Below are positions 30,182 to 47,012 of a DNA stretch of 64,000 bases, piece by piece. How positions within the stretch are numbered: the stretch's first letter is position 1; the number at the start of each line of letters is the position of its first letter. The notes under the pieces were generated by a model. The model saw nothing but the letters and a program-made list of their open reading frames with translations, searched no databases and was not told where the DNA came from. The DNA is from Gallionellaceae bacterium (GTDB lineage Bacteria; Pseudomonadota; Gammaproteobacteria; Burkholderiales; Thiobacillaceae). A program made the position numbers and the translations under genes. Location of the stretch: positions 1-64,000 of the forward strand of contig JAQTLN010000020.1 of assembly GCA_028714875.1 (NCBI GenBank), given 5' to 3'.

Positions 30182-30248
30182 CGTGAGGCGTGAAGCGATA
30201 GGCATGAGGCGAAATAACGACGCGACACCTCACGCCCACAGCGTCGCC

Positions 30249-30644
30249 CTACTTGTACTGGCGCCACTCTGTCGGCGTTTCGTCGTGGTCGCCGTGCGGG
30301 TGCTTTTCCCAGGCTTCCATGTGCGGCTTGTATTTCTTGGTCTGCACTTCCGGTTTGTGCAGGTTTTCCCGCTGGACGTGTTCGCAATAGTAGGCCAGCG
30401 CGCGTTTGACCCGGATCAGCAGAGTCGCCTCCAGGTGAAAGCCCCGTATACCCAGCATGGTTTCCACATCCTGCAATGAGTGGTCAGTGATGCAATAAGC
30501 GATTTGCAGGGTTTGCGGTCCGGTCCGGGTGGCGTTCAGCCCCGGCAAGTCGGCGAGCAATTCGAGGGCGCGCTCGACCTGCTCGGGAGGCAGGGGGTGA
30601 AAAACGATCTCCCGCAGCTTGTCGACGTCACTGGGCGCCGACAC
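30249..30644 (-). CDS. conserved protein of unknown function, coupled to ctpA
   Basis: I do not recognise a characterised family. The 131-residue product is soluble, without signal or membrane segment. It appears to have a compact alpha/beta N-terminal domain (LREIVFHPLPPEQVERALELLADLPG ... GPQTLQIAYCITDHSLQDVETMLGIRGFHL, reminiscent of a ferredoxin-like beta-alpha-beta fold) followed by a long basic helix and a charged tail rich in histidine and tryptophan (KYKPHMEAWEKHPHGDHDETPTEWRQYK). Tail histidines could bind metal, but this is speculative. It starts three bases after the ctpA stop and is surely co-transcribed with it. Confidence 0.75.
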   Translation of the reverse strand: MSAPSDVDKLREIVFHPLPPEQVERALELLADLPGLNATRTGPQTLQIAYCITDHSLQDVETMLGIRGFHLEATLLIRVKRALAYYCEHVQRENLHKPEVQTKKYKPHMEAWEKHPHGDHDETPTEWRQYK

Positions 30645-30647
30645 GGT

Positions 30648-32060
30648 TCACTCCTTGCGGCCTTGCAGCAGGTTGAGCCCCTTGAGCAGGATCAGCGCCT
30701 GATTGAACTGGTAGTCGCTCTTGCTGACGACCTCACCGGGCTCCAGCGCCGGCTTGGCCTTGCCACCCTTGGCCTTATCGTCTTTGGGCTTCTTGTCGTC
30801 CTTGGGTGCCTGCGGTGTTTTTGCCGCGTTCTCTTCATCGCCGTTGGTGAGATGCCGCTCCAGGTCGGCTTCACGCACTTCGATCTTGGCCGTCTCACCC
30901 GACGATACCGTCGCTTCTTCCACAGGGATGTCCGGTGTGATGCCCTTGGCCTGGATGGAGCGGCCGCTCGGTGTGAAGTAGCGCGCGGTGGTGAGTTTGA
31001 TGGCGGTGCCGTTGTTGAGCGGCAGGATGGTTTGCACCGAGCCCTTTCCGAACGACTGGGTGCCGACGATCAGTGCGCGCTTGTGGTCCTGCAACGCACC
31101 CGCGACGATTTCCGAGGCGGAAGCCGAGCCACCGTTCACCAGCACCACCAACGGCACGGTCTTGGCCCAAGCCGGCAGATTCTTGAGATAGTCGGTCTCT
31201 CCGGGGCGCAGATAGTTTTCCCGCGAATTGGTCAGGCGCATCTTGGCGTCTTCAATGCGACCATCGGTGTACACCACCAACTCGCCCGGCTTGAGGAAGG
31301 CGCCGGAAACGGATACGGCGGTATTGAGCAGACCACCGGGATCATTGCGCAGGTCCAGCACCAGGCCCTTCAGCGCGCCCTTGTTCTGCTCACCCAGGTC
31401 GTTCAGCGCATCCACCAGGTTTTCGCCGGAGTGTTCCTGAAACTGGGTAATGCGCACATAACCGAAGCCGGGCTCGACCAGCTTGTATTTGACGCTCTTG
31501 ATCTTGATGACCGCGCGCGTGATGGTGATCGTGAGCGGCTTGGTCTCGCCCTTGCGGATGATGGTCAGGGTGATGTCGGTGCCGGGCTTGCCACGCATGC
31601 GCTTGACCGCGTCGTTCAAGGTCATGCCCTTGACCGGGGTGTCATCCAGTTTGATAACCAGATCGCCACTTTTCACTCCGGCCTTGAAGGCGGGGGTGTC
31701 TTCGATCGGGGATACCACTTTCACGAAGCCGTCTTCCATGCCGACTTCGATGCCGAGACCGCCAAACTCGCCCTGAGTCCCGACCTGGAGTTCCTTGAAG
31801 GCTTCGTTGTCTAGATAGGCGGAATGCGGGTCCAGGCCGGAGAGCATGCCGTTGATGGCTTCGGTGATCAGCTTCTTGTCTTCCACCGGCTCGACATAAT
31901 CGCTCTTGATCTTGCCGAAGATCTCGCTGAACGCACGGAGATCCTCTAGTGGCAAGGGCTCGGGTTCGCGTTCCGCGTTGGCCGAATAATTGAGGGTGAG
32001 CGCGGCGCCGATCAGGACACCCATACCCACGAGACTGAATTGCTTGAATTTGCTGGCCAT
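30648..32060 (-). CDS. ctpA: carboxyl-terminal processing protease (S41 family)
   Basis: A periplasmic serine protease that trims or degrades envelope proteins, often lipoprotein-assisted peptidoglycan hydrolases. The 470-residue product has an N-terminal membrane/signal segment (LVGMGVLIGAALTLNYS), a PDZ domain around residues 90-170 (GGLGIEVG...GVKSGDLVIKLDD), and the catalytic part with LVLDLRNDPGGLL, the serine in NGGSASASEIVAGAL and the lysine in GTQSFGKGSVQ. A lysine-rich spacer precedes the last helix. Its closeness to envC (12 bp) suggests shared control of cell-wall cleavage. Confidence 0.95.
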   Translation of the reverse strand: MASKFKQFSLVGMGVLIGAALTLNYSANAEREPEPLPLEDLRAFSEIFGKIKSDYVEPVEDKKLITEAINGMLSGLDPHSAYLDNEAFKELQVGTQGEFGGLGIEVGMEDGFVKVVSPIEDTPAFKAGVKSGDLVIKLDDTPVKGMTLNDAVKRMRGKPGTDITLTIIRKGETKPLTITITRAVIKIKSVKYKLVEPGFGYVRITQFQEHSGENLVDALNDLGEQNKGALKGLVLDLRNDPGGLLNTAVSVSGAFLKPGELVVYTDGRIEDAKMRLTNSRENYLRPGETDYLKNLPAWAKTVPLVVLVNGGSASASEIVAGALQDHKRALIVGTQSFGKGSVQTILPLNNGTAIKLTTARYFTPSGRSIQAKGITPDIPVEEATVSSGETAKIEVREADLERHLTNGDEENAAKTPQAPKDDKKPKDDKAKGGKAKPALEPGEVVSKSDYQFNQALILLKGLNLLQGRKE

Positions 32061-32071
32061 GATGCCTCTGG

Positions 32072-33256
32072 CTATTTGAGATTGACCCAGGTGAGTGGGT
32101 CGAAGGGTTTGCCCTGGCGGCGCAGTTCAAAATAGAGACCGGGTTCATCCTGGCCCCCTGTGGCGCCTACCGCCGCCACCACATCACCCGCCTTGATAGG
32201 GTCGCCCGGCTGTTTATACAAGCTTTCATTATTGCTGTACAGACTGAGGAAACCGTCGCCATGGTCGATGATCAGCAGGTTGCCGAAGCCGCGCAGCCAA
32301 TCCGCGAAGGCCACCTGACCGGAGCCTACCGCGCGCACTTCCTGACCTTGCCGGGCACGGATGAACAGTCCTTTCCAGGCCGGGCCGCCGCCGTCGCGGT
32401 TCTGCCCGTAGCGATGCAGGATTTCCCCCGCCACGGGCAGGGCAAGCTTGCCCTTGAGACGATTGAAATCCAGCCCCGCCAGGCTGGCATCGGCTACCCG
32501 GTTCACTTTCTGGCCCGGTTTGCTTGCCGCCTGGGGCTTCGGCACGGCCAGACGCGCGAGGCGCTCGATCAAGCGAGTCAGACGTTTCTCGTCGCGCGCC
32601 AGGGTGTCGATTTCCTTGCGCTGCTTGCGAATCTGCTCGGAAAGCTTGTTAAGCACCTGCTGACGTGTACTTTTCTCGTTTTCCAGCGCCTTTTTCTGAG
32701 CTACACGGTCATCCCTGACCTGACTCAGGTTGTCGCGCCGCGCCTGGGCCTGTTCCTTGAGCGTGCCGAGGCGGGCTAGCGAATTCTGGTACTCGTGGAT
32801 GATCTCCGCGCGAGCACGGCCGATGTAGCCGTAATACTCCAGATTGCGCGCCACCTCGCCGGGGTTCTGGCCGTTGAGTAGCAGCTTCATGGCATCATTG
32901 CCGCCCTGTACATAGCGCTCACGCAGCAGAGTGGCCAGACGTTGCCGCTGGTCCGCGATCTCGCCGCCGACCGAGCGCGCCTCCTCTTCCAGTTTCTTCA
33001 GCTCGCGCGCCAGACGGCGTTGCTTTGCCTCCAGATCGCGCAGACTGCGCGCCACATTGGAAATGCCGCGTTCGGATTTCTTCAGGCCGTCAGCCGCTTC
33101 CGAGCGATCTTCACTGGCCTGCTCCAGTTCCTGTTGCAACGCTTCGATACGACCACGTAAATCCTTGAGTTCCTCCTGCTTGCCGGCCTCGGGGCCGGCC
33201 AAGGCCGGGGATGCAAGCGCGAGAATGAGGAGAACGGCACGAATCAACGAAAGCAC
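32072..33256 (-). CDS. envC: murein hydrolase activator EnvC-type protein
   Basis: The 394-residue product has a signal peptide (LLILALASPALAG), a long coiled coil of about 220 residues and a C-terminal LytM (M23) domain. The LytM metal ligands are not kept: WKGLFIRA stands where a histidine is expected, and LYFELRR replaces the HxH strand. EnvC likewise is a catalytically dead activator of amidases, so the call is activator rather than peptidase. The start is GTG at 33256, one base after gpmI's stop codon on the same strand. Confidence 0.88.
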   Translation of the reverse strand: MLSLIRAVLLILALASPALAGPEAGKQEELKDLRGRIEALQQELEQASEDRSEAADGLKKSERGISNVARSLRDLEAKQRRLARELKKLEEEARSVGGEIADQRQRLATLLRERYVQGGNDAMKLLLNGQNPGEVARNLEYYGYIGRARAEIIHEYQNSLARLGTLKEQAQARRDNLSQVRDDRVAQKKALENEKSTRQQVLNKLSEQIRKQRKEIDTLARDEKRLTRLIERLARLAVPKPQAASKPGQKVNRVADASLAGLDFNRLKGKLALPVAGEILHRYGQNRDGGGPAWKGLFIRARQGQEVRAVGSGQVAFADWLRGFGNLLIIDHGDGFLSLYSNNESLYKQPGDPIKAGDVVAAVGATGGQDEPGLYFELRRQGKPFDPLTWVNLK

Positions 33257-33257
33257 G

Positions 33258-34805
33258 TCATTCGAATTCGATGAGCGCGCTGCCGGTCATTTCCGGCGGT
33301 TGCGGCAGGCCCATCATCTTCAGCAGGGTGGGGGCGAGGTCTTCCAGCGCGCCGCTATGTTCCAGACGCGCCGGCCTGCCAATGTAAACCAGGGGCACCA
33401 GGTTAATGGTGTGGGCGGTGTACGGCTGGTTGGTGCTGATGTCCAGCATGGTCTCGGCATTGCCATGATCGGCGGTGATCAGCACTTCCCCACCACTGGC
33501 TTGCATCGCCGCCACCACACGTCCCAGACAACTATCAACCGCCTCCACCGCCTTCACGGCGGCTTCCATGATGCCGGTATGGCCCACCATGTCGCAGTTG
33601 GCGTAGTTGCAGATGATGGCGTCGTATTTGTGGCTCTCGATCGCTTCGACCAGTTTGTCGGTGAGTTCGAAAGCATTCATCTCGGGCTTGAGATCGTAGG
33701 TCGCCACCTTCGGCGACTGCACCATGACGCGGTCCTCGCCGGGATAAACCGTTTCCTCGCCACCGTTGAAGAAATAGGTGACGTGCGGATATTTCTCGGT
33801 TTCCGCGATGCGCAACTGGCGCAGTCCCAAGTTGGCGATGTACTCGCCGAAGCCATTGCGCACCCGCTCCGGCGGGAAAGCGACGGGCACATCGAATTCT
33901 TCGCTATAGCCGGTCAGGGTGCAGTAGCTGGAGAGCTTAGGCACATATTCGCGCGCAAACTCCTTGAATCCCGGCTCGATGAACGCCTTGGTGATCTCGC
34001 GGGCGCGGTCGGAACGGAAATTCATGAACACGACGGCATCGCCGTCATGCATGCGCACCGGCTCGGAGCCTTTCTCGACGATCGTGGTGGGCTTCACGAA
34101 TTCGTCATTTTCGCCGCGCTCATAGGCCATTTCCAGGCCCAATGCCGCGCTGGGCGCCTGATATTCAGCGCGTCCCAGAGTCAGCAGCTCAAAGGCAATC
34201 TTCACCCGGTCCCAACGTTTGTCGCGATCCATGGCGTAATAACGGCCGACGATGCTGGCGATGTGACCACCGCGCAGCCCGTCCATCTTGTCCTGCAGGC
34301 AACGGATGTATGCCTCCGCGCTTCTCGGCGGGGTGTCACGGCCATCCAGGAAAGCGTGCACATAGACCTTCTTGAGGCCTTCGCGCAACGCCAGGTCCAG
34401 CATGGCATGGATGTGGTTCTCGTGGCTGTGCACGCCGCCATCCGAGAGCAAGCCGAATATGTGCAGCGCGCCGCCATTGGCCTTGAGCTTGCCGATGACT
34501 TCATTGAGCGCCGGGTTGCTCGGGAAATGGCCGCTGTTGATGGCGTGGTCGATGCGGGTGAATTCCTGATACACCACGCGACCCGCGCCGATATTGAGGT
34601 GGCCGACCTCGGAATTACCCATCTGACCGGCCGGCAAACCCACAGCGGCTTCGGAGGCCTGAATCAGGCTATGCGGAAAGTCTTTCCAGAAACGATCGAA
34701 ATTTGGTTTGCTGGCGCTGGTGATGGCGTTATAGGCATCAGCACGGCGACAGCCGAAACCATCGAGGATGATAAGCAGAACGGGGGTAATGGAAGCAGGA
34801 GGCAT
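33258..34805 (-). CDS. gpmI: 2,3-bisphosphoglycerate-independent phosphoglycerate mutase
   Basis: GpmI interconverts 3- and 2-phosphoglycerate through a phosphoserine and two manganese ions. The 515-residue protein has LLIILDGFG at the start, the catalytic serine in GQMGNSEVGHLNIGAG near residue 65, DGRDTPP, and the metal site ADHGNAE near residue 440. It heads the gpmI-envC-ctpA transcript, a linkage found in many proteobacteria. The divergent gap to the ArsR gene holds AT-rich inverted repeats. Confidence 0.97.
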   Translation of the reverse strand: MPPASITPVLLIILDGFGCRRADAYNAITSASKPNFDRFWKDFPHSLIQASEAAVGLPAGQMGNSEVGHLNIGAGRVVYQEFTRIDHAINSGHFPSNPALNEVIGKLKANGGALHIFGLLSDGGVHSHENHIHAMLDLALREGLKKVYVHAFLDGRDTPPRSAEAYIRCLQDKMDGLRGGHIASIVGRYYAMDRDKRWDRVKIAFELLTLGRAEYQAPSAALGLEMAYERGENDEFVKPTTIVEKGSEPVRMHDGDAVVFMNFRSDRAREITKAFIEPGFKEFAREYVPKLSSYCTLTGYSEEFDVPVAFPPERVRNGFGEYIANLGLRQLRIAETEKYPHVTYFFNGGEETVYPGEDRVMVQSPKVATYDLKPEMNAFELTDKLVEAIESHKYDAIICNYANCDMVGHTGIMEAAVKAVEAVDSCLGRVVAAMQASGGEVLITADHGNAETMLDISTNQPYTAHTINLVPLVYIGRPARLEHSGALEDLAPTLLKMMGLPQPPEMTGSALIEFE

Positions 34806-34850
34806 TAGCGGATTTTATCGTCTCTAACAGACTTTTTCATGTCGTATTTT

Positions 34851-34880
34851 AGTATATTTGAATACTTTACGAACTATACT
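34851..34880 (+). promoter_or_regulatory. candidate operator/promoter of the ArsR-family gene
   Basis: AGTAT and ATACT (34851-34866) form an inverted repeat with a 6-base centre. AGTATA (34851) also pairs with TATACT (34875-34880), which is a good -10 sequence. The matching -35 position (34852-34857) is poor and lies within the repeat. Binding there would block the promoter, so autoregulation is plausible. Confidence 0.4.
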
Positions 34881-34934
34881 GACGCGGCTGGCATCAGCTC
34901 GCGCCTTTATATAACCGGCAGCACGGAGCCCACA

Positions 34935-35252
34935 ATGACCACCGAGTCCACCGATCTCATCGACAAGGACGAGCATATCGAACAAGCATCCCGCGCCCTC
35001 AAAGCCATGTCTCACCCTTTGCGGTTGAAGATTTTGTGCGTGCTGGGTGACAAGGAAGTCAGCGTTCAAGACATCGTGGAAAGCGTCGGCACCTCGCAAA
35101 GCAACATTTCCCAGCATCTGGCCATCCTGCGCGACAAGGGCGTGCTGCGCACCCGCAAGGACGCCAACCGTGTCTACTACCGTGTCGGCGACACCCGCAC
35201 GTTGCTGCTCATCGGCATGATGCGCGACGTTTTTTGCGGTTTCGCGAAATAG
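34935..35252 (+). CDS. ArsR-family regulator of the SqrR/BigR/YgaV persulfide-sensor type
   Basis: The 105-residue winged-helix protein shows MSHPLRLKILCVLGDKEVSV, recognition helix TSQSNISQHLAILRDKGVL and wing TRKDANRVYYRV. Two cysteines, C35 and C101 (in LCVLGD and VFCGFAK), are 66 residues apart. In SqrR (C41/C107) and BigR (C42/C108) cysteines at the same spacing and in similar contexts (RLMLVCTL; YTIFCA) form a tetrasulfide bridge that releases DNA. Arsenic- or cadmium-type metal sites (CVC-type motif) are absent. The ATG at 34935 is preferred because residues upstream are not family-like and ACGGAG precedes it. Role as sulfide/persulfide-responsive repressor of the following operon is inferred. 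Confidence 0.8.
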   Translation: MTTESTDLIDKDEHIEQASRALKAMSHPLRLKILCVLGDKEVSVQDIVESVGTSQSNISQHLAILRDKGVLRTRKDANRVYYRVGDTRTLLLIGMMRDVFCGFAK

Positions 35253-35293
35253 CCGCGCCGCCTCCGGCACACGACATGTAGCCGGACTTATCT

Positions 35294-35337
35294 TTGCATA
35301 AAAAAAACTGATCATGTATATTAGCCACGTCTAATAT
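35294..35337 (+). promoter_or_regulatory. promoter with overlapping palindromic operator upstream of the RND operon
   Basis: TTGCAT (35294-35299), a 17-base spacer and TATATT (35317-35322) form a good sigma70 promoter. A perfect inverted repeat, ATATTAG-CCACGT-CTAATAT (35318-35337), covers the -10 box and the start point. Such a site would let the upstream ArsR-family protein shut the operon off by blocking RNA polymerase. Confidence 0.68.
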
Positions 35338-35390
35338 TCCCCACGTGCCTTGTTGGCCATGGGGTCAGCGTCCCAGCAAGGAGCGTTGTC

Positions 35391-36743
35391 ATGAAGAATC
35401 GCAATCCGCGACAGCGTCTGGTTGTCGCAATCACCTTGGTCCTATCACTGGCGGCCTCCGCCGCCTGGGCTGAGAAGCTGGAGTTCAAGCAATGCGTCGA
35501 GACGGCGCTGGCGCAGAACCCGGATTTGAGCATCAGCCACGCCCAGATCGAACAGGCGGAAGCCGCCTTGCGCCAGGCCCAGGGCAACCGGTTGCCGCGT
35601 GTCAATCTGTCACTGACGGCCATGCGCAGCGACGATGCCTTGAATGCCTTCGGCTTGAAACTGGGGCAGCAGCGCGTTAACCCGGCAACCGATTTTGGCC
35701 CGGCCGCGTTGAACCACCCCGACGCCGTCAATAACTTCAACTCTCGCATCGAAGTGCAAGTTCCCGTCTACAACGGCGGCATGGTGCAAAGCTATATCGA
35801 CACCGCGAAAGCCCATGTGCGCGCCGCGCAATCGGGTGATGAGGTCGCGCGCCAGCAACTGACCAAAAATATTTTGATGGCCTATCAGGGCGTCCACACC
35901 GCCCGCGCCTATATCAAAGTGGCCGACGAGGCGCGCGCCGCCGCCGAGGAATATGTGCGCATCACCGACAAACTGCACATACAGGGCATGGTGGTGAAAA
36001 GCGACCTGCTCTCGGCCCGAGTCAATCTGGAAGACGTCAAGGTCAAGGGCCTCGAAGCCCGCAATGCCGAAAAAGCGGCATTGAACCAGTTGGCCCTGCT
36101 GCTGGGCAGGTCGCTGGACGAGCCGCTCGACGTCGGCGCGCCGGTGGCGCCCGCCCTGCTCGCCGGCGGCGAGTCGGATCTACGCCGCCAGGCCCGCGAC
36201 AGCCATGCCGGCCTGCGCGCCCTACGCAACCAGATCGAGGCGGCCGGCGCCCAGGTCGGCGCCGCGCGCGCCGGCAAGAAACCGCAATTCAACGTCATGC
36301 TGCGGCAGGACTGGAACGACAAGAACTTGGGTATCGACGCCTCCTCCTACACGGTGGCCGGCGTGCTGTCCTGGGCGGCGTTCGACGGCGGCGTGACCAA
36401 TGCCGGCATCGACCGCGCCGAGGCGGCCCGCTCCGAGTTGAAGGCGAAACTGCGCCAGGCCGAGGATGGCATCGGCTACCAGGTCACCGACGCGCGGCGC
36501 CGCGCCCTGGAAGCCGAGGAGAAAGTCGCCGCCCGTGTAGCCAATCTGGAACAGGCGAAGGAAGCGCAGCGACTGGTCAAAAAACGCTACGAGAACGGCA
36601 TGGGCACCATGGTCGAACTGCTTGCCGCCCAGGCCCAACTCGACAAGGCCAACGCCGATCTGGTCGCCAGCCAATACGAACTCGCCGTCAACCGGGCGGA
36701 ACTGAAGCGCGCCGTCGGCGTGCTTGCCGCCGATACGCTTTAA
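35391..36743 (+). CDS. TolC family outer-membrane efflux protein
   Basis: The outer-membrane channel of a tripartite exporter. The 450-residue product has a signal peptide ending AASAAWA-EK and two long-helix repeats of the OEP family (residues about 30-225 and 240-445), rich in alanine and charged residues as expected for the alpha-barrel. ATG 35391 has AAGGAG eight bases upstream. It is first in the operon with the adaptor and the RND pump, 12 bases before the adaptor gene. Confidence 0.93.
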   Translation: MKNRNPRQRLVVAITLVLSLAASAAWAEKLEFKQCVETALAQNPDLSISHAQIEQAEAALRQAQGNRLPRVNLSLTAMRSDDALNAFGLKLGQQRVNPATDFGPAALNHPDAVNNFNSRIEVQVPVYNGGMVQSYIDTAKAHVRAAQSGDEVARQQLTKNILMAYQGVHTARAYIKVADEARAAAEEYVRITDKLHIQGMVVKSDLLSARVNLEDVKVKGLEARNAEKAALNQLALLLGRSLDEPLDVGAPVAPALLAGGESDLRRQARDSHAGLRALRNQIEAAGAQVGAARAGKKPQFNVMLRQDWNDKNLGIDASSYTVAGVLSWAAFDGGVTNAGIDRAEAARSELKAKLRQAEDGIGYQVTDARRRALEAEEKVAARVANLEQAKEAQRLVKKRYENGMGTMVELLAAQAQLDKANADLVASQYELAVNRAELKRAVGVLAADTL

Positions 36744-36755
36744 CCGGAGGCCGAC

Positions 36756-37847
36756 ATGTCGACCGCATATTCCACCGATTTTTTCAGACTCACTCTCATG
36801 AAACCGCTTGTCGTCGCGCTCGCGCTCGCGCTGGCCGGCTGCTCCGGCGAGGACAAGGCCAAATCGGCTGAAACCGCCCAACACGTCACCCAAGCCCAGG
36901 TAACCGTGCTGCAAGCGACAGAAGCCGTCACCACCAACGCCACGCCAGGCAACGTCGTCGCGCTGGAATCGGTGCAGGTCGCCTCGCGTCTGATGGGTTA
37001 CCTGCGCAATATCGCCGTGGTCGAGGGCCAGTCGGTGAAAAAGGGCCAGCGCCTGTTCACCATCGACCCGCTCGACATCGAGGGCGCGGTGGAACAGGCC
37101 CGACTCGGCCTGCAACAGGCCGAGGACGCGATGCGGGACGCCAAGACCGATTTCGAGCGCTTCGAGAACCTCTACAAGGAGGAAGTGGTGAGCCGTCAGC
37201 AATATGAAAAGATGAAGCTCAACCACGACATCGCCGTGTCGCGAGCGGCGCAGGCCAAGGCCGGCCTCGGCACCGCGCGCGGGCAGATGCGCTACGCCAC
37301 GGTGACCGCGCCGATCAATGGCGTGGTCACCCGCAAGCTGGCCAACGAAGGTGACATCGCCGCCCCCGGCCAGCCCGTGTTGCTGCTGGAGAACCCGGCC
37401 CGGCTCCAGGTGCGGACCAGCGTCGACGAGGACTTGTACAAGCGCATCAAGATGGGCGACAGCGTGATGGTCGAAATCGACGGCCAGGACAAACCGGTGA
37501 ACGCGAAGGTGGCGCGCCTGTCACCCGCCGCCGACCCGATTACCCATACCTACATGGTCAAGCTCGACATTGCCGCGCCCGGTCTGAAGAGCGGCGTTTT
37601 CGCCCGCGTCCTGTTCCCCACCGGCAAGCGCAATGTCCTGGCCCTGCCGCAAGCCGCCGTGCTGGACCGCGCCGGCATCACCGGTGTCTTCGTGGTGGAC
37701 GACAAAGGTAACGCGCAATACCGCATGGTGCGCTTGGGCAACAGGTTCGAAGACCTGGTCGAGGTGCTGTCCGGGCTCAACCCGGGCGAACGGGTGGTCA
37801 GCGGCAACGCCCAGGCGGTGAACAACGGCGACAAGATTTCCGGGTAG
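36756..37847 (+). CDS. RND efflux periplasmic adaptor lipoprotein (membrane fusion protein)
   Basis: Connects the inner-membrane pump to the TolC channel. The 363-residue product has a lipobox (LALAGC) for lipid anchoring, a split biotinyl-lipoyl domain (YLRNIAVVEGQSVKKGQRLFTIDP and APINGVVTRKLANEGDIAAPGQPVLLL), a helical hairpin between them and a beta-barrel domain (VRTSVDEDLYKRIKMGDSVMVEI). ATG 36756 has a GGAGG ribosome-binding site. The ATG at 36798 gives a more usual lipoprotein signal but lacks such a site. Confidence 0.93.
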   Translation: MSTAYSTDFFRLTLMKPLVVALALALAGCSGEDKAKSAETAQHVTQAQVTVLQATEAVTTNATPGNVVALESVQVASRLMGYLRNIAVVEGQSVKKGQRLFTIDPLDIEGAVEQARLGLQQAEDAMRDAKTDFERFENLYKEEVVSRQQYEKMKLNHDIAVSRAAQAKAGLGTARGQMRYATVTAPINGVVTRKLANEGDIAAPGQPVLLLENPARLQVRTSVDEDLYKRIKMGDSVMVEIDGQDKPVNAKVARLSPAADPITHTYMVKLDIAAPGLKSGVFARVLFPTGKRNVLALPQAAVLDRAGITGVFVVDDKGNAQYRMVRLGNRFEDLVEVLSGLNPGERVVSGNAQAVNNGDKISG

Positions 37848-37851
37848 GGCC

Positions 37852-40800
37852 ATGAGCAATCACCAATCCCATCAAGAGGCGCCGATGAACCTGGCGGGCA
37901 AGCTCGCCAAAGGGTTCCTCACCTCCAAGCTCACCGCCCTGTTCATCCTGGCGGTGACCCTGACCGGCCTGCTCGCGCTGGTCGTCACGCCGCGTGAATA
38001 CAACCCGCAGATCGTGGTGCCGGCGGCCAACATCATCGTCGCCAAACCCGGCGCTTCCGCCAGCGAAATCCACAATCTGGTGGTGAAGCCGCTGGAAGCG
38101 ATCATGAACGCGCAATCCGGGGTGGACCACACGTTCGGCTACGCGAACAACGATTTCGGCCTGGTCACGGTGCAGTTCAAGGTTGGCGAGAACCAGGAAG
38201 ACAGCCTGGTGAAGCTGTACAACCAGTTGATGCAGAACATGGACCGCATCCCGCCCGGCGCAATGCAGCCTATCGTCAAGCCGATCAACGTAGATGACGT
38301 GCCGATCATGACCCTGACGCTGTCTTCCGCGACCCATGACGACATGCGCCTGCGCCAGGTCGGCCAACGCCTGCTGGAACATCTGCGCAACGTGCCGGGC
38401 GTGTCATTCACCCAACTCCTGGGTGGCCGGGCACAGGCGGTGAACGTCTGGATCGACCCGCAGCGCCTGGAAGCGGCCGGCCTCACGCTCGACCGTATCG
38501 ACCAGATGCTGCGTGGCGCCAACGTCGCCGCGCCGCTGGGTGAACTGGTGCGGGACAACAAAAGCGTGCCGTTGCGCCTGGCCGGCTTTCTCGGTTCCGC
38601 CGAAGAAGTGGGCCAGATCGTGGTCGGCACCGGCAAATCCGGAGGCGGGCCGATCTATTTGAAGGACGTCGCAAGAATCGAAGACGGCGCGGCTGAAATC
38701 GAAGAAACCACGCGCTTCGCCTACGGCCCGGCCGCGCTGGACAAAGCCGCCGGCAAACAACGCGGTGAACACCCCGCCGTCACCCTGGCCATCGCCAAGA
38801 AAGCCGGCACCAATGCCGTGGTGGTCGCCGACGCGGTGCTGGCCAAGCTGGAGGAACTGAAGCGGCAGGCCATTCCCGCCGGCATCGACGTCGCCGTGAC
38901 CCGCAACGACGGCGCCAAGGCCGACGCGGCGGTTAACGAACTGGTCATGCACCTCGGCATCGCCATCGCCTCAGTAGTGGTGATCTTGGTGTTCTTCCTC
39001 GGTTGGCGCGAGGCCGGCATCGTCACCATGACCGTGCCGCTGATCCTGTTCGTGGTGCTGGCCGTCGGCCTGGCGTTCGGCCAGACCATCAACCGCATCA
39101 CGCTGTTCGCGCTGATTCTCTCGCTCGGCCTGCTGGTCGACGCGGCCATCGTGGTGATCGAAAACATCCACCGCCACCTCCATCACGGCTCGAAGAAGCC
39201 GTTCGCGGAAACCCTGGTGATCGCCACCAACGAGATCGGCAACCCCACCAATGTCGCCACTGTCGCGGTGATCCTGGCCTTCATCCCGATGGCCTTCGTC
39301 ACCGGCATGATGGGTCCGTTCATGCTGCCCATCCCGTTCAACGTCCCGGTCGCCATGATCGCCTCCATCGTCATCGCCTACATGGTGGTGCCGTGGGCGG
39401 CCAAGCTCTGGCTGGCGAAGAAAGCCGCGCGCGAGGAACTGGAACGCACGCCCTGCCTGGAAGAACCAGACACGCGGAATCCGGACGCGCTGCAACGCGC
39501 TTATATCGCCGTACTGACGCCGCTGATCGGCTCCAGCGCCAAGCGCAACATCACCTTCCTGGTGGTGCTGGGCCTGCTCGCCGGCGCCATGCTGATGCCG
39601 GCCTGGCAGTTCATCCGGCCATCCGGCCTGAACGGCCCGCTTTCGCTGTTCGGCGTGGAACTCAAGATGCTGCCCAACGACAACACCAACACCATGCTGT
39701 TGCAGATCGACATGCCCGCCGGCACGGCCCTGGCCGCCACCGACCAGGTCGCGCGCGAAGTGGGCGCGGTGGTGGGCAAATACCCGCACGTCACCGATTA
39801 CCAGACCTTTCTCGGCCTGACCGCCCCGATCGACTTCGCCGCTCTGGTACGCGGCGACATGATCAAGCGCGGCGGCAACCTCGCCCAGATCCGCGTCAAC
39901 CTGGTCGACAAGCATCATCGCGACGAAGCCTCGCACGAGGTCGCGCAACAACTCGACGAGGCTTTGCGGGGGGTACGCAAACGCTTCCCGACGGCGCGCA
40001 TCAAACTCTACGAAACCCCGCCCGGCCCGCCGGTGCAGGCGCAAATTCTGGCGGAACTGTACGGCCCAGATTACGACGCGCTGCGCGCCGCCGCCCCTCA
40101 GGTGGACGCCGCGTTCGCGCGGATGTACGGCATGATCAACGTCGACGATTCCGTCACCGCCAACGCCGACAGCTACCACATCCATGTCGACAGCGAAAAA
40201 GCCTTGCTCTCCGGCGTCGCGCCCGGCCAGATCGCCAAGCTGCTACGCGATTACGTTTCCGGCTTCGACATCGGCACCCTGCATGTGGAAAGCGCCCGCG
40301 AGCCCATCGACATCAAGGTGCGCCTGCCGCGCGAACAGCGCGCCGGGCCGGAAGCGCTGATGAATCTTCGCGTCACCAATCCACACGGCATGCAGGTGCC
40401 GCTGTCCGCCATCGCCCGCGTCGAGCGCGTGACCGAAGCCAAGCCGATCTACGCCCGCGACCAGCATGCCATGGTCATGGTCGGCGGCGAGCTGCTGAAA
40501 TCCAGCCCGGTCTACGCCGTGCTGGCGATGGACAAACTGCTGGACGGCAAGAAACTACCCAACGGGGCCACCTTCACCACCGGCAACCTCGGTTTCACCC
40601 AGGCCAGCCCCAAGGATGTGGTGGATTACACCCTGCTCTGGGGCGGCGAGATGCGCCTCACCCTGGACGTATTCCGCGACCTGGGTTCCGCCTTCATCAT
40701 CGCGCTGATCCTGATCTACCTGATGCTGGTGGCCTACTACAAATCGTTCATGCTGCCGCTGATCGTCATGGGCGCGATTCCCCTCACCCTGGTCGGCGTG

Positions 40801-41157
40801 TTCCCCGGCCACTGGGCCACCAGCCAGGCCTTCACCGCCACCTCAATGATCGGCGTCATCGCTCTGGCCGGCATCGTGGTGCGCAATTCCCTGCTGCTGA
40901 TCGACTTCATCCTGGAATACCGCAAGCAGGGTTACGCCCTGGAAAAAGCCGTGATCGAAGCCGGCGCCGTGCGCTTCCGGCCGATCCTGCTCACCGCGCT
41001 GGCGATCATCCTCGGCTCCGCCATCATGATCACCGACCCGGTATTCGGAGGCTTGGCGGTCAGCCTGATCTTCGGTACCTTCGCCTCCACCGCATTGACC
41101 CTGGTCGTCATCCCGTTGATGTACTACCTGTGGCAACGGAAAGTTGCAGCCAAGTAA
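37852..41157 (+). CDS. RND efflux transporter permease
   Basis: The proton-driven inner-membrane pump. The 1101-residue product has the AcrB-like plan: one helix, a large periplasmic loop, six helices, a second large loop, and five or more helices. The helix-four motif reads LGLLVDAAIVVIENIHRHL, with D430 and A431 where drug pumps (HAE1) have two aspartates; metal pumps such as CusA also have VDAAIVMIEN with one. The C-terminal half has GVIALAGIVVRNSLLLIDF. Substrate is unknown; the regulator suggests a sulfur-related compound. It could also be a metal or general exporter. Confidence 0.92.
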   Translation: MSNHQSHQEAPMNLAGKLAKGFLTSKLTALFILAVTLTGLLALVVTPREYNPQIVVPAANIIVAKPGASASEIHNLVVKPLEAIMNAQSGVDHTFGYANNDFGLVTVQFKVGENQEDSLVKLYNQLMQNMDRIPPGAMQPIVKPINVDDVPIMTLTLSSATHDDMRLRQVGQRLLEHLRNVPGVSFTQLLGGRAQAVNVWIDPQRLEAAGLTLDRIDQMLRGANVAAPLGELVRDNKSVPLRLAGFLGSAEEVGQIVVGTGKSGGGPIYLKDVARIEDGAAEIEETTRFAYGPAALDKAAGKQRGEHPAVTLAIAKKAGTNAVVVADAVLAKLEELKRQAIPAGIDVAVTRNDGAKADAAVNELVMHLGIAIASVVVILVFFLGWREAGIVTMTVPLILFVVLAVGLAFGQTINRITLFALILSLGLLVDAAIVVIENIHRHLHHGSKKPFAETLVIATNEIGNPTNVATVAVILAFIPMAFVTGMMGPFMLPIPFNVPVAMIASIVIAYMVVPWAAKLWLAKKAAREELERTPCLEEPDTRNPDALQRAYIAVLTPLIGSSAKRNITFLVVLGLLAGAMLMPAWQFIRPSGLNGPLSLFGVELKMLPNDNTNTMLLQIDMPAGTALAATDQVAREVGAVVGKYPHVTDYQTFLGLTAPIDFAALVRGDMIKRGGNLAQIRVNLVDKHHRDEASHEVAQQLDEALRGVRKRFPTARIKLYETPPGPPVQAQILAELYGPDYDALRAAAPQVDAAFARMYGMINVDDSVTANADSYHIHVDSEKALLSGVAPGQIAKLLRDYVSGFDIGTLHVESAREPIDIKVRLPREQRAGPEALMNLRVTNPHGMQVPLSAIARVERVTEAKPIYARDQHAMVMVGGELLKSSPVYAVLAMDKLLDGKKLPNGATFTTGNLGFTQASPKDVVDYTLLWGGEMRLTLDVFRDLGSAFIIALILIYLMLVAYYKSFMLPLIVMGAIPLTLVGVFPGHWATSQAFTATSMIGVIALAGIVVRNSLLLIDFILEYRKQGYALEKAVIEAGAVRFRPILLTALAIILGSAIMITDPVFGGLAVSLIFGTFASTALTLVVIPLMYYLWQRKVAAK

Positions 41158-41161
41158 CTCG

Positions 41162-41192
41162 TAGGGCGGAACGCCGACAGGCGGTTCCGCCA
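41162..41192. repeat. short inverted repeat between the RND and YgaP-type genes
   Basis: GGCGGAAC (41165-41172) and GTTCCGCC (41184-41191) flank a CGCCGACAGGC-like centre, after TCGTAG. It resembles GTAGGGCGGAA-type dispersed repeats and fills the 56-base gap without a T-run. Confidence 0.55.
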
Positions 41193-41213
41193 AACCTCCC
41201 AAAGGAACTTCAA

Positions 41214-41444
41214 ATGACCATCGAACGCATCATCCGCATCATGGCCGGCGCCTTCATCCTGCTGTCCCTGGGCCTGGCCCACTTCAGCGGCCAGGCCGAC
41301 CTCGGCCACCTGTCCTGGCTCTGGTTCACCGCCTTCATCGGCCTCAACCTCCTGCAATCCGGCTTCACCGGCTTCTGCCCGCCGGAAAAATTGCTCAAGA
41401 AACTCGGCTTCCAGGAAGGCGGCAGCGCCTGTAGTACCAAGTAA
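41214..41444 (+). CDS. DUF2892 / YgaP-type inner-membrane protein
   Basis: A 76-residue protein with two hydrophobic segments (IRIMAGAFILLSLGLAHF and LSWLWFTAFIGLNLLQSGFTGF) and the cysteine pattern TGFCPPEKLLKKLGF, typical of the DUF2892 domain. In YgaP this domain anchors a rhodanese to the membrane, and free-standing copies recur in sulfide-responsive operons. ATG 41214 has AAAGGA eight bases upstream. It closes the exporter operon, and a membrane rhodanese follows 0.7 kb downstream. Confidence 0.88.
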   Translation: MTIERIIRIMAGAFILLSLGLAHFSGQADLGHLSWLWFTAFIGLNLLQSGFTGFCPPEKLLKKLGFQEGGSACSTK

Positions 41445-41551
41445 GGCACACGCGGAAGAAATGGCCACGGGGCCAAGCGATTCAGCCACGTAGTCATTTT
41501 CCGGCGTTTCATGGGCGATAATCCGCCCCCGACGCAAAACGGGAGATCGAC

Positions 41552-42133
41552 ATGGGTCTACCGCAACTGAAAACCGAGCACTACACCTACGCCGATTACT
41601 GTTCCTGGCCCGACGACACTCGTTACGAGTTGATCGACGGCGTGGCCTACGCGATGGCGCCGGCGCCGACGCGGACGCGGACGCACCAAAGCCTGGTGCT
41701 GGAGTTGGTACGTCAGGTCGCCACCGCGCTCCAGGGCAAGCCCTGCCAACCCTTCGTCGCGCCGCTCGACGTGCGTCTGTTCCATGCCGACGAGGCTGAC
41801 GAGCAGGTGGACACGGTGGTGCAACCGGATGTGCTGGTGGTGCGCGATGAAACCAAGCTGGACGAGCGCGGCGTGCGCGGCGCGCCGGACTGGGTGGCGG
41901 AGGTGCTCTCTCCCAGTTCCGCCAAGCACGATCTGATCGTCAAACTGGCTTTGTATGAACGGGCAGGCTTGCGCGAGTACTGGCTGTTGCACCCGACCGA
42001 TCGTCTGGTCACGGTTTACCGATTGGCCGATGGCCAATACGGCCGCCCGGAGATCAGCGAAATGACCGGAACTTTGAGCATCGGCATCCTGCCCGATGTC
42101 ACGGCCGACTGGTCACTTTTCCCCACCAACTGA
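41552..42133 (+). CDS. Uma2 family (DUF820) endonuclease-like protein
   Basis: The 193-residue product has the PD-(D/E)XK-type layout of the Uma2 family: RYELIDGVAYAM near residue 25, VVQPDVLVVRDE near residue 90, EVLSPSSAKHDLIVKLALYERAGLREYWLL with the catalytic E and K. Family members are abundant in cyanobacteria and sporadic elsewhere; their biological role is not established. It stands alone, with GGGAGA-type ribosome-binding sequence, between the YgaP-type gene and the rhodanese. Confidence 0.85.
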   Translation: MGLPQLKTEHYTYADYCSWPDDTRYELIDGVAYAMAPAPTRTRTHQSLVLELVRQVATALQGKPCQPFVAPLDVRLFHADEADEQVDTVVQPDVLVVRDETKLDERGVRGAPDWVAEVLSPSSAKHDLIVKLALYERAGLREYWLLHPTDRLVTVYRLADGQYGRPEISEMTGTLSIGILPDVTADWSLFPTN

Positions 42134-42156
42134 GCCCCAACCGAGAAGGAACACGA

Positions 42157-42567
42157 ATGGATTTCGCGCTACAAAACATCTGGCTGATTCTGCTTGCCGG
42201 CCTGTCCGGCTTCATGTTGCTGGGCGGCGGCCTGTTCGGGCGTATGTCCGGGGTCAAGCAGATCGGCCCGCAGGAAGCGGTCATGCTGTTCAACCACGAG
42301 GACGCCCTGTTGCTGGACGTGCGTGAACAGTCGGAATGGAGTGACGGCCATATCGCCAAGGCCCGGCACATTCCCCTGGGTAAACTGAAGGATCGCCTGT
42401 CCGAGCTGGAGAAATACAAGGGCAAGCCGATCATCGCCGTGTGTCGCAGCGGTAATCGCTCCGGCAGCGCCTGCGGCACGCTCAAGAAAGCGGGTTTCGA
42501 GAACCTGCACAACCTCGCCGGTGGCATGCAAGCCTGGGAACAGGCCGGCCTGCCACGCGAAAGATAA
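42157..42567 (+). CDS. membrane-anchored rhodanese-like sulfurtransferase
   Basis: The 136-residue product has an N-terminal membrane helix (IWLILLAGLSGFMLLGGGLF) and a single rhodanese domain with the active loop CRSGNRSG near residue 96. Such domains carry sulfane sulfur as a cysteine persulfide. It matches YibN, the partner of grxC in gammaproteobacteria, and grxC follows here too. Together with the sensor and YgaP-type protein it fits a persulfide-handling neighbourhood. Confidence 0.92.
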   Translation: MDFALQNIWLILLAGLSGFMLLGGGLFGRMSGVKQIGPQEAVMLFNHEDALLLDVREQSEWSDGHIAKARHIPLGKLKDRLSELEKYKGKPIIAVCRSGNRSGSACGTLKKAGFENLHNLAGGMQAWEQAGLPRER

Positions 42568-42588
42568 CCAACCGTTCCCTGAACGGTT

Positions 42589-42633
42589 CCCTCACCACCA
42601 GCCCCTCTCCCGCTCGCGGGCGAGGGGAGCGCC
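42589..42633. repeat. CCCTCTCC-type palindromic repeat between rhodanese and grxC
   Basis: CCCCTC-T-CCCGC-TC-GCGGG-C-GAGGGG (42602-42627) preceded by CCCTCACCACCAG, related to the elements at 4016 and 19838. Just upstream AACCGTTC-CCT-GAACGGTT (42570-42588) is a separate perfect 8-bp hairpin directly after the rhodanese stop. Confidence 0.7.
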
Positions 42634-42670
42634 AAGAGTCGCCTCGCGGCTGAGTAACCAAGGAAGCACC

Positions 42671-42928
42671 ATGCCCCACGTCAAGATGTACTGCACCGCC
42701 ACCTGCCCCTACTGCACCATGGCCGAGAAGCTGCTGGCCAAGAAGGGCGTCACCAACATCGAGAAAGTTCGTGTCGATCTCGACTCGGCCCAGCTCGAAG
42801 AGATGATGCGCATCACCGGCCGCCGCACCGTGCCGCAGATTTACATCGGCGACCGCCATGTCGGCGGCTTCGACGACATCTCCGCGCTGGATGCCGGCGG
42901 TGAGCTGGAGCCGTTGCTGGCGGCTTGA
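42671..42928 (+). CDS. grxC: glutaredoxin 3
   Basis: An 85-residue dithiol glutaredoxin. The active site CPYC is at residues 12-15, with the TVPQIYIGDRHVGGFDD glutathione-binding block. It reduces protein disulfides and mixed glutathione disulfides in the cytosol. ATG 42671 has AAGGAAG upstream. In related bacteria the next gene is often secB; here it is a palindrome and an aminotransferase. Confidence 0.97.
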   Translation: MPHVKMYCTATCPYCTMAEKLLAKKGVTNIEKVRVDLDSAQLEEMMRITGRRTVPQIYIGDRHVGGFDDISALDAGGELEPLLAA

Positions 42929-42940
42929 TGCTGTCGCCCA

Positions 42941-42980
42941 CGTAGGCCAGGTTGCGGCGACAGCCGCAACCTGGCCTACG
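42941..42980. repeat. 17-bp perfect palindrome after grxC
   Basis: CGTAGGCCAGGTTGCGG and its complement around CGACAG, 12 bases after the grxC stop. There is no T-run. Related CGTAGGTCAGG arms bracket 44331-44430. The rest of the gap to 43174 shows nothing identifiable. Confidence 0.8.
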
Positions 42981-43174
42981 CGTTTCCGCCCCCGGCTGAT
43001 TCGGTGATGCGACACAATGTTGACACCGCCAGGCTGGTCGCTCGGCATAGTGCGGGCGCGCCGCAACCGCACCATGCAATGCGACCGTACTTGATGCGGG
43101 CAGTTGCGTCGGCCTGCCTGGCTGCCGCTCAAGCTAATAGAATCGCGGCCTGATCCCGTCTCCCAGGAAACGCC

Positions 43175-44308
43175 ATGACCCAGCCCGCGCCCGCCATTTC
43201 ATCTTTCCAGCCCCCGCGTCGCATCCTCATGGGCCCCGGCCCATCCGATGTGCCGCTGCGCATTCTCGACGCGATGGCGCGCCCCACCATCGGCCATCTC
43301 GATCCAGCTTTCCAGGACATGATGGAGCAGACCAAGACGCTGCTGCGTTACGCCTTCCAGACCGAGAACAAGCTGACCTTTCCGGTGTCCGGACCCGGTT
43401 CCGTGGGGATGGAAACCTGTTTCGTGAACCTGGTGGAGCCAGGCGACAAGGTCATCGTCTGCGTCAATGGCGTGTTCGGTGGCCGCATGCTGGAGAACGT
43501 GAAGCGCGCCGGCGGCCTGCCGCTGCTGGTGGAAGACGCCTGGGGTCGGGCGGTGGACCCGAACAAGGTCGAAGCCGCGTTCCAGGCCAACCCCGACGCG
43601 AAAATCCTCGCCTTCGTGCACGCGGAAACCTCCACCGGCGCGCAATCCGACGCCGCCGCGCTGGCCGCCATCGCGCGCAAATTCGGCGCGCTGACCATCA
43701 TGGACTGCGTGACTTCCCTCGGCGGAACACCGGTGCTGCTCGACCAGTGGGGCATCGACGCGGCCTATTCCGGCAGCCAGAAATGCCTGTCCTGCACCCC
43801 CGGCCTATCGCCGGTCAGCTTCTCGGAGGCCGCCATTGCCAAGGTGCGGGCACGGAAAACCCCAGTGCAAAGCTGGTTCATGGACCTCAACCTGGTGCTC
43901 GGCTACTGGAGCGGCGAGTGCAAGCGCACCTATCACCACACCGCGCCGATCAACCCGCTCTACGGCCTGCACGAAGCCCTGGTGATCCTCGCCGAGGAAG
44001 GCCTGGAGGCCGCCTGGGCGCGGCATCGCGCCATGCACGAAATCCTCAAGACCGGCCTGGTAGGCATGGGGCTGTCTTTCGTGGTGCCGGAGAACGAGCG
44101 CCTGCCGCAACTCAACTCGGTGGCGCTGCCGGCCGGCATCGACGATGCCGCCGCGCGCGCGCGGCTGCTCAAAGAATTCAACCTGGAAATCGGCGCCGGC
44201 CTCGGCGCCCTGGCCGGCAAGATCTGGCGCATCGGCCTGATGGGCGCCTCGGCGCGGCGGGAGAACGTGGAGCTTTGCCTGAAGGCGCTCACCACCGTGC
44301 TGGCATAG
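43175..44308 (+). CDS. alanine/serine-glyoxylate aminotransferase family protein
   Basis: A class V PLP enzyme of the AGXT/PucG group, transferring the amino group of alanine or serine to glyoxylate. The 377-residue product has the family opening [19 protein letters not shown] and TIGHLDPAF, the cofactor region [12 protein letters not shown], and the Schiff-base lysine in [16 protein letters not shown] near residue 195. Glyoxylate use could support one-carbon or photorespiratory-type salvage. The exact amino donor is not decidable. It is a single-gene unit between repeat-rich gaps. Confidence 0.92.
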
Positions 44309-44330
44309 AGACGCGGACCCGGGGGGCACC

Positions 44331-44430
44331 CGTAGGTCAGGCTGGCGCGATAGCGACTGCCTGAAGGTCGTTTCATCTAGCCGTGATTTGATCGTGGGTC
44401 GTCAGGTAGCCTACGGCAACCTGACCTACG
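44331..44430. repeat. CGTAGGTCAGG-bounded inverted-repeat element
   Basis: A 100-bp segment bordered by 11-bp inverted arms CGTAGGTCAGG (44331-44341) and CCTGACCTACG (44420-44430), with an internal GTCAGGTAGCCTACGGC. It lies between the convergent aminotransferase and lpxC-side genes. The arms resemble those of the palindrome at 42941. Confidence 0.7.
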
Positions 44431-44453
44431 GGGGGCGATCGCCATGGCGATGG

Positions 44454-44639
44454 TCAAAGCACCATGACCAGCCGTTCCACCAGATAAGCCAACATGATCA
44501 GAATAGCCAGGGCGAGGCCGCCCTTCAGGCCGAGGCCGGCGAAGCGCAACCAGCGCGCGTCCCGATTGATGGTGTAGCCGAGCAGGGTGATGACCAGAAA
44601 AACGCCAACCAGAATCAGGAGCAGACGGACGCCCAGCAT
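44454..44639 (-). CDS. small two-helix membrane protein coupled to lpxC
   Basis: A 61-residue product ([27 protein letters not shown]...) with two membrane helices at about 4-22 and 38-58 and a short charged loop between. Its ATG shares a base with the lpxC stop (TGATG), so it is translated with lpxC. I do not recognise a characterised family; similar small hypothetical proteins follow lpxC in some betaproteobacteria. The frame open further upstream is shadow of lpxC. Confidence 0.65.
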   Translation of the reverse strand: MLGVRLLLILVGVFLVITLLGYTINRDARWLRFAGLGLKGGLALAILIMLAYLVERLVMVL

Positions 44640-45553
44640 CAGGCGGCCAGGGGATGCAGGTTGAGCAGGCCCTTGGGCACGCTGGCGTCGTCCTTGAACT
44701 CCGCCCATTCCCAGGCGCTGACGTCTGCCAGCAGGCCGCGCAACAGTTTGTTGTTGAGACCGTGGCCGGATTTGTAGGCGGAGAAGGCGCCCAGGATGGG
44801 GTGACCAGCCAGGTAGAGGTCGCCCACGGCGTCCAATACCTTGTGCTTCACGAACTCGTCGGCATAGCGCAGGCCGTCGCTGTTAAGCACGCGGAACTCG
44901 TCCATGACGATGGCGTTATCCAGGGTACCGCCGAGGGCCAGGCCATTGCTGCGCAGGTATTCCACTTCACGCATGAAGCCGAAGGTGCGCGCCCGGCTGA
45001 TTTCCTGGACATAGGACTGGCGCGCGAAGTCGAGCTTGATCTCGCGCGCGGAATGTTTGAATACGGGGTGATCGAAGTCGATCTTGAAGGCCAGCGTATA
45101 GCCTTCGTGTGGGGTGAACTCGGCCCATTTGTCACCTTCTTCCACGCGTACCGGGTGCTTCACCCGAATGAAACGCTTGGCGGCATTCTGCACTTCGATG
45201 CCGGTGGATTGCAGGAGATAGACGAAGGGCGCGGCGGAGCCGTCCAGGATGGGCACTTCCGGGCCATCCAGGTCGATGTAAAGGTTGTCGATGCCCAGCC
45301 CGGCCAGCGCCGACATCAAATGTTCGACGGTAGCCACCTTGGCCCCATTGCCTTCCAGCGCGGAACATAAGCGGGTATCAGTGACGGATTCCGGTGAAAC
45401 CCGGAATTCGCGTGGTTCAGCCAGATCGGTGCGGCGAAACCAGATTCCCGTCCCGGGTGCGGCCGGGCGCAAGGTCAGGTTGACCCGCTCGCCCGTATGC
45501 AGGCCGACGCCGGTGGCGCGTACCAGGGATTTGATGGTTCTTTGGCGGATCAT
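44639..45553 (-). CDS. lpxC: UDP-3-O-acyl-N-acetylglucosamine deacetylase
   Basis: LpxC is the committed, zinc-dependent step of lipid A synthesis. The 304-residue protein shows [16 protein letters not shown] with the first zinc histidine near residue 77, [19 protein letters not shown] with the second histidine and the aspartate, and the catalytic KSGHGLNN. It follows ftsZ at the end of the dcw cluster, the standard position, but with a 7-bp repeat array in the gap. Confidence 0.98.
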
Positions 45554-45672
45554 GGAATGGCGCTGCGCTGAATGAGACAGGAATGCCGAATGCTATCCCG
45601 GCGAGGCGGGAGGGATTGCGCCCAGCCGGGATAATCACCCAAGAAAACAACAGTTTGTGGCATTCCCGCCGT

Positions 45673-45717
45673 TCCGAAATTCGAAATCCGAAATCCGAAA
45701 TCCGAAATCCGAAATCG
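45673..45717. repeat. 7-bp tandem array (CCGAAAT) between ftsZ and lpxC
   Basis: About six copies of CCGAAAT (one imperfect), ending two bases before the ftsZ stop codon. The same heptamer forms arrays in murG (two, inverted), murD and the first codons of murE. The rest of the 166-base gap shows no clear terminator. Confidence 0.85.
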
Positions 45718-45719
45718 AC

Positions 45720-46907: not shown

Positions 46908-46935
46908 GTTGCGTCCCTCCTACGGTTACTTACAC

Positions 46936-47006
46936 AAAAAAACGGTTACGGAACAGCCGGTTGGCGAAGAAAACGCTCTCCCATTCGCCAGCCGGCACAG
47001 CCCGTT
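46936..47006 (-). promoter_or_regulatory. hairpin with T-run between ftsA and ftsZ
   Basis: GCCGGCTGGCGAA and TTCGCCAACCGGC (46984-46996 and 46956-46968) pair with one mismatch. An outer GAAC/GTTC pairing extends the stem. Seven T follow about seven bases later (46936-46942), before the ftsZ ribosome-binding site. It may be a partial terminator or attenuator separating ftsZ from upstream readthrough. Confidence 0.45.
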
Positions 47007-47012
47007 CCCGAA

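Follow-up and report, generated by a model that had tools for sequence, protein, structure and literature searches.

The window analysed here comprises positions 1-64,000 of contig JAQTLN010000020.1, from an assembly assigned to a Gallionellaceae bacterium. The locus under study (34,935-42,567) encodes an ArsR-family regulator with two cysteines followed by a resistance-nodulation-division (RND) exporter (Table 1). A sequence-only reading of this stretch had predicted a sulfide/persulfide-responsive RND export operon. Gene order and domain matches confirm that the regulator gene (arsR) precedes a TolC/adaptor/RND set that ends in a DUF2892 gene, and the rhodanese and grxC genes named as following it are indeed present, behind an intervening Uma2 gene that had gone unmentioned. 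Upstream of arsR, three genes whose names were read by eye (gpmI, envC and an S41-type protease) diverge from it. No Rfam family reached its gathering score within 30000-48000, and scans for promoter consensus and terminators were near background.

Table 1. Features at and around the regulator-exporter locus (positions in the window).
Feature	Position	Strand	Model or status
gpmI-like gene (name read by eye; E. coli counterpart gpmM), divergent neighbour	33258..34805	-	
Degenerate operator TTTTAG-TATATT-TGAATA, 3 mismatches, gpmI-arsR gap	34847..34864	.	
Two-cysteine ArsR regulator, 105 aa (amino acids), C35/C101	34935..35252	+	PF01022
Second palindrome CTTAT-N6-ATAAA across the -35 region	35287..35302	.	
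Promoter-like TTGCAT-N17-TATATT, weak -35 (3/6)	35294..35322	+	
Operator TATTAG-CCACGT-CTAATA, overlapping the -10 box	35319..35336	.	putative
TolC-type outer membrane channel (OEP)	35391..36743	+	PF02321
RND periplasmic adaptor (HlyD_D23, RND_mfp)	36756..37847	+	PF16576; TIGR01730 above cut-off
RND permease (ACR_tran), divergent	37852..41157	+	PF00873
DUF2892/YgaP-like_TM transmembrane protein, CP motif	41214..41444	+	PF11127
Uma2 family gene, variable passenger	41552..42133	+	PF05685
Rhodanese with N-terminal hydrophobic stretch (read by eye), yibN position	42157..42567	+	PF00581
Glutaredoxin 3 (Grx3, grxC)	42671..42928	+	TIGR02181 above cut-off

Translation of 34935-35249 gives 105 aa in which C35 (RLKILCVL) and C101 (DVFCGFAK) are 66 residues apart, exactly as first described. 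The ArsR helix-turn-helix fold is recognised by PF01022 (47.3 bits, cut-off 22), and the regulator finds a match at E ≤ 0.001 in 57 of 61 genomes. Both cysteines and their spacing are kept in all 45 orthologue rows (E < 1e-35); three BigR-like rows (L079-L081) were left out before this count, as was L083, which is a truncated further piece of genome G004. In a wider set, the best 80 of 586 loci (hereafter the named loci, some of which stop early at contig ends), the pair is present in 79. The automatic count was 75; in four of the five loci that it missed, the numbering is shifted by one residue and both cysteines can be seen in the sequence. The only loss is in the Aquitalea orthologue L314, in which Ser replaces C35.

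Among solved sequences, BigR, YgaV, HlyU and SqrR (structure entries 6o8k-6o8o, which we take to be SqrR) come closest together with NolR, ahead of SmtB, CadC and CzrA, which supports the proposed SqrR/BigR-type kinship. The cysteine pair aligns with the sensing pair of BigR, YgaV and HlyU. The BigR equivalog model NF040642 is missed (76 bits, cut-off 155). The regulator thus appears to belong to the two-cysteine sulfane-sulfur ArsR group, but it is not BigR. In a maximum-likelihood tree of 30 rows, 19 orthologues form one clade (support 100/100), separate from E. coli ArsR and from the genome's own CxC ArsR (the C2 ArsR, which carries ECCVCE). In this comparison with other ArsR members, which had been suggested as a check, the clade stands apart from two arsenic-type sensors, the only metal sensors included; deep forks are weak, long branches were flagged, and of the 27 inner branches 14 were left open. 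The same genome also encodes, at G000:C4:124790 (L003 1429-2100), a 223-aa protein that combines an ArsR-type helix-turn-helix with a rhodanese-like domain (translation read by eye).

These data bear on the possibility of a metal or metalloid resistance operon, in which a SmtB/ArsR-type metal sensor would govern an RND heavy-metal exporter. ArsR-family regulators often control metal pumps, and the NCBIfam metalloregulator subfamily model NF033788, a general, subfamily-level model, is passed (86.6 against 55 bits). Yet the regulator lacks the CxC-type arsenic/cadmium site, having just two cysteines 66 residues apart, and branches away from the arsenic-type sensors. We regard such an operon as highly improbable, also in view of the pump residues and target genes described below.

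The neighbourhood of regulator, RND and DUF2892 is strongly conserved across genomes, with the recurrent order gpmI / arsR-(tolC)-adaptor-RND-DUF2892-(Uma2)-rhodanese-grxC in relatives. The named loci carry labels such as Thiobacillus, Sulfuricella, Gallionellaceae, Thauera, Azonexus, Chitinibacter and Ectothiorhodospiraceae. gpmI diverges from arsR in 63 of the 80. In 37 loci arsR is followed by an RND gene (17 with the window's tolC type, 29 with DUF2892 detected), and two RND types, about 40% identical, fill the same slot. arsR stands immediately before the rhodanese without an RND in 23 loci, and 16 have neither gene in the stretch. In E. coli K-12, gpmM is divergent from yibN-grxC-secB with no regulator there. 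Based on this order, the regulator occupies an old housekeeping neighbourhood, into which the exporter is inserted between regulator and rhodanese in part of the group. Because the gpmI/yibN/grxC/secB arrangement is ancestral, rhodanese and grxC are weak evidence for a dedicated sulfur operon, although arsR does immediately precede the rhodanese in the 23 loci just mentioned. Uma2 was ruled out as an operon member: missing in many relatives and present in two copies in L065, it has the distribution of a mobile or variable passenger.

The exporter promoter carries the inverted repeat TATTAG-N6-CTAATA, a spacing-specific palindrome that is a new element of this analysis. Of the 38 exporter-bearing loci, that of the window among them, 32 have it with ≤ 2 mismatches in the gap between arsR and exporter (39 loci in the automatic count, from which L076 was dropped for an adaptor match 8 kb away). 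The six loci without it are L041, L057, L061, L063, L068 and L069, the last of which was scanned over 750 bases though its tolC begins 2.4 kb after arsR. At the same threshold the site is present in 33 of the 37 RND-bearing named loci, including the clade with the ~40% identical RND. The degenerate copy in the gpmI-arsR gap is a possible autoregulation site; an exact match to its core, TTTAGTATATTTGAATA, precedes arsR in 26 of the 45 orthologue rows. The second palindrome recurs as an exact CTTAT-N6-ATAAG in 12 of the 38 exporter-bearing loci. An ATTC-N6..14-GAAT pattern, tried as a SqrR-like operator, was rejected (2 window matches, 6.6 expected).

Beyond the locus, sites of the palindrome were counted per genome and summed over the 23 genomes of the genus, own genome included. 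In the own genome, sites with ≤ 2 mismatches are at background (25 against 29 controls), so the genus counts were limited to ≤ 1 mismatch. The N6 spacing then yields 125 sites against 29 for the reversed pattern, compared with 4 against 42 for N5, 5 against 21 for N7, and 5 forward and 11 reverse for a permuted left half. At the level of the order (200 genomes), the 81 genomes that carry an orthologue of the regulator hold 325 sites against 191 reversed-pattern controls (48 genomes above and 17 below control), and the 119 without one hold 387 against 534 (20 above, 64 below). A rank test between the two sets gives p = 3e-10, kinship not being corrected for. When the window's family is removed, the regulator-bearing genomes retain 297 sites against 183 controls. 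As a group, the site excess is confined to regulator-bearing genomes.

This co-occurrence has to be set against the possibility that another transcription factor owns the palindrome, with the ArsR gene adjacent by descent and in control of just itself or of rhodanese-grxC. Such an owner would fit the coincidence of the operator's right half with the -10 box, the variation of target genes between groups, and the lack of a ≤ 2-mismatch site near arsR in 39 of the 43 named loci in which no RND was detected, which leaves the rhodanese without an operator in most RND-less loci. Among the four exceptions, L265 and L276 have a site downstream, on a short contig and next to an adaptor; in L299 and L316 the site is upstream. 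Against such an owner stand the restriction of the group-wide excess to regulator-bearing genomes and the 1-mismatch sites that also lie upstream of arsR in L261, L264, L266, L268 and L269. The palindrome further fits a relative of the regulator: the NolR consensus, (A/T)TTAG-N9-A(T/A), is contained in the operator on both strands, and the alignment offset makes Q55, which does not vary in alignment A1, the counterpart of the base-reading Gln56 of NolR. We consider another owner of the palindrome distinctly unlikely.

Of the 125 genus sites, 93 were examined: 20 at the exporter and 9 at dsrA, both by coordinates, and 64 others by their downstream genes. The target-family queries came from the same loci, so that one match per family is the query itself, and orthologous targets should not be taken for separate events. 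Most frequent among the 64 are a small rhodanese (11 sites, start 19-24 bases past the site) and a C_GCAxxG_C_C gene (10 sites, 13-16 bases past the site). A membrane protein that has a CxxCH haem motif but no Pfam match follows five sites (L181, L192, L200, L230, L231), a Sulf_transp gene of the YeeE/YedE type three, a peroxiredoxin three (the frame in L225 is interrupted) and a DsrC-like gene two, at 135 and 147 bases. The remaining assignments are an HPP/LysR pair (3 sites), two small uncharacterised families (3 and 2), FolE2, an N-acyltransferase and a cytochrome-like group (2 each), and Sdh_cyt, another cytochrome-like gene and a 33%-identical rhodanese (1 each); the names HPP, LysR, FolE2 and cytochrome were read by eye. 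No metal-handling gene is among the assigned targets of the 64 sites.

A strong dsrA match (E < 1e-100) is present in 20 of the 23 genus genomes, and the other three are 58-84% complete. Together with the labels of relatives (Hydrogenophilales bacterium and Hydrogenophilus sp. in the genus, Thiobacillus sp. in the family), dsrA indicates that the source bacteria probably oxidise sulfur. The left half of the dsrA site reads GAT[AT]AG in 19 of 19 genus promoters read, with variable adjacent bases, and its right half doubles as a likely -10 box. A separate element, TTACCCC-N-TCGGAATGATGG, lies upstream of dsrA (L147-L172); it is near-invariant in the 19 genus promoters, recognisable in most of seven promoters from other genera of the family, and possibly an activator site.

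That dsrA, DsrC-like, rhodanese and Sulf_transp genes of the genus have the putative operator in front of them lends independent support to a sulfur role, and it suggests that one switch controls both the exporter and sulfur-metabolism genes. We lean towards the reading that the regulator responds to sulfane sulfur and represses a dispersed regulon, with the exporter among its members. The original prediction of a sulfide/persulfide-responsive RND operon is supported in part: the cysteine pair and the nearest solved sequences speak for it, the sulfur genes behind the operator add to this, and its use of rhodanese and grxC is weakened.

Several observations weigh against this reading, in addition to the two model scores, the -10 overlap and the RND-less loci given above. 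The genus survey covers 93 of the 125 sites, and 13 of the 64 have no assigned target. The dsrA match was counted irrespective of oxidative or reductive type, and the left half GAT[AT]AG is found in none of the seven dsrA promoters from the family's other genera. Twenty of the 119 regulator-less genomes also exceed their control, and the rank test ignores kinship. Farther from the genus, two genomes that carry the regulator without an adjoining RND or rhodanese, G040 and Chitinibacter tainanensis, show no sulfur gene recognised by eye behind the sites read (16 of 16 in G040, with 16 sites and 3 control; 6 of 12 in C. tainanensis, with 12 sites and 2 control). Their targets, also read by eye, are proteases, sensory proteins and secreted proteins. 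Since Chitinibacter-type sites front non-sulfur genes, a universal sulfur role is doubtful; either the regulon is specific to sulfur only in some groups, or other proteins bind the palindrome in these genomes. Azonexus, Thauera and Zoogloea (1, 3 and 3 sites, of which 1, 2 and 2 were read) have no clear sulfur theme. Among the loci L335-L354, the site of a secreted protease-like gene recurs in both Chitinibacter-type genomes (L343, L353).

An alternative is a general thiol-redox sensor of peroxide, disulfide or electrophile, with the RND acting as a multidrug or envelope-stress pump and the sulfur genes being only some of the targets. Peroxiredoxin and C_GCAxxG_C_C genes are recurrent targets, the sites in Chitinibacter-type genomes front non-sulfur genes, and Chitinibacter, Deefgea and Azonexus likewise have the orthologue. 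Moreover, RexT, an ArsR relative, is reported to sense H2O2. The alignment of the cysteine pair with persulfide sensors argues in the other direction: HlyU, which has the aligned pair, is reported to form a tetrasulfide with persulfides, at a mass shift of +62 Da, and to be unreactive toward peroxides and disulfides (PMC10509353). So does the recurrence of dsrA, DsrC-like, rhodanese and Sulf_transp genes behind genus sites. We judge a general thiol-redox sensor to be unlikely, and retain the sulfane-sulfur-responsive repressor as the preferred reading.

The exporter itself gives few indications of its cargo. The window RND is 23% identical to AcrB and likewise to CusA (in the residue comparison, rows L040 and L058 were dropped because their longest reading frame is not the RND, and L261 is partial). 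The equivalents of D407, R971 and T978 are kept and K940 is Arg; at the D408 position the window pump has Ala and some relatives have Asp. This Ala, at the second aspartate position of TM4, is shared with CusA and would favour a metal pump. Residues F610, F615, F617 and F628, which line the distal pocket of AcrB, are not kept (A, A, L and R in the window pump), and neither is the CusA triad Met573/Met623/Met672 (Q, L and a gap), which speaks against a metal pump. The DUF2892 CP motif is found in 62 of 63 relatives' rows, and the remaining translation ends after three residues. A sulfur compound as the cargo is still a guess.

Under the preferred reading, the regulator would be a repressor akin to the two-cysteine ArsR proteins SqrR, BigR, YgaV and HlyU but in a separate clade, and its dimer would bind TATTAG-N6-CTAATA. 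Bound at the exporter promoter, the dimer would cover the -10 box and block tolC-adaptor-RND-DUF2892, and binding to the degenerate site might give autoregulation. In response to more sulfane sulfur, as persulfide or polysulfide, a sulfur bridge between C35 and C101 would form and the dimer would leave the DNA. The exporter would then be made together with the products of the other operator-bearing genes (in this genus dsrA, DsrC-like, small rhodanese, YeeE/YedE-type Sulf_transp, peroxiredoxin and C_GCAxxG_C_C), and the pump would export a sulfur compound or something turned toxic under sulfur stress.

The regulator resembles SqrR, BigR, YgaV, HlyU, SoxR and sHdrR in its ArsR fold and aligned cysteine pair, in having BigR, YgaV, HlyU and SqrR as nearest solved sequences, and in the sulfur genes behind its putative operator in the genus. 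It differs from them in its separate clade, its score under the BigR cut-off, its palindrome, its anchoring between gpmI/envC and yibN-grxC-secB, and its link to an RND and to dsrA. NolR of Sinorhizobium is a related ArsR protein whose consensus lies within the window operator; unlike the window regulator, it has no cysteines (PMC8960804), and it controls nodulation genes. The E. coli ygaV-ygaP pair is similar in that a YgaV-like regulator adjoins a rhodanese and a YgaP-type membrane domain, and the C-terminus of YgaP (GFC..LL) resembles FCP..LL of DUF2892 by eye. However, YgaP is a rhodanese fused to the membrane domain with no RND nearby, whereas in the window the rhodanese and the two-helix DUF2892 domain are separate proteins and the exporter lies between regulator and rhodanese. 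AcrB (drug) and CusA (copper/silver) share with the window pump the RND family and the D407/R971/T978 equivalents, and are set apart by low identity and by the four Phe and three Met residues that are not kept.

An RND pump in such a regulon had been called unusual. This calls for correction: judging from genetic environment, two-cysteine ArsR regulators appear to act on RND pump genes as well, among other sulfur genes (Li et al. 2025, PMC12423496). No paper on the regulator clade, its operator or the dsr link was found in the literature searched, which mostly did not cover subscription papers. A bolder version, in which the clade directly gates dsrA and sulfur-relay genes and RND-DUF2892 expels persulfide or polysulfide sulfur, would unite sensing, oxidation and export in one betaproteobacterial regulon; as a whole we think it improbable.

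To our knowledge, how dsr-bearing bacteria sense their sulfur substrate and switch the dsr genes is poorly known. A specific regulator with its putative DNA site and a short target list would offer a testable handle on this switching, and the exporter that accompanies the regulator in 37 of the 80 named loci is a concrete candidate for sulfane-sulfur efflux.

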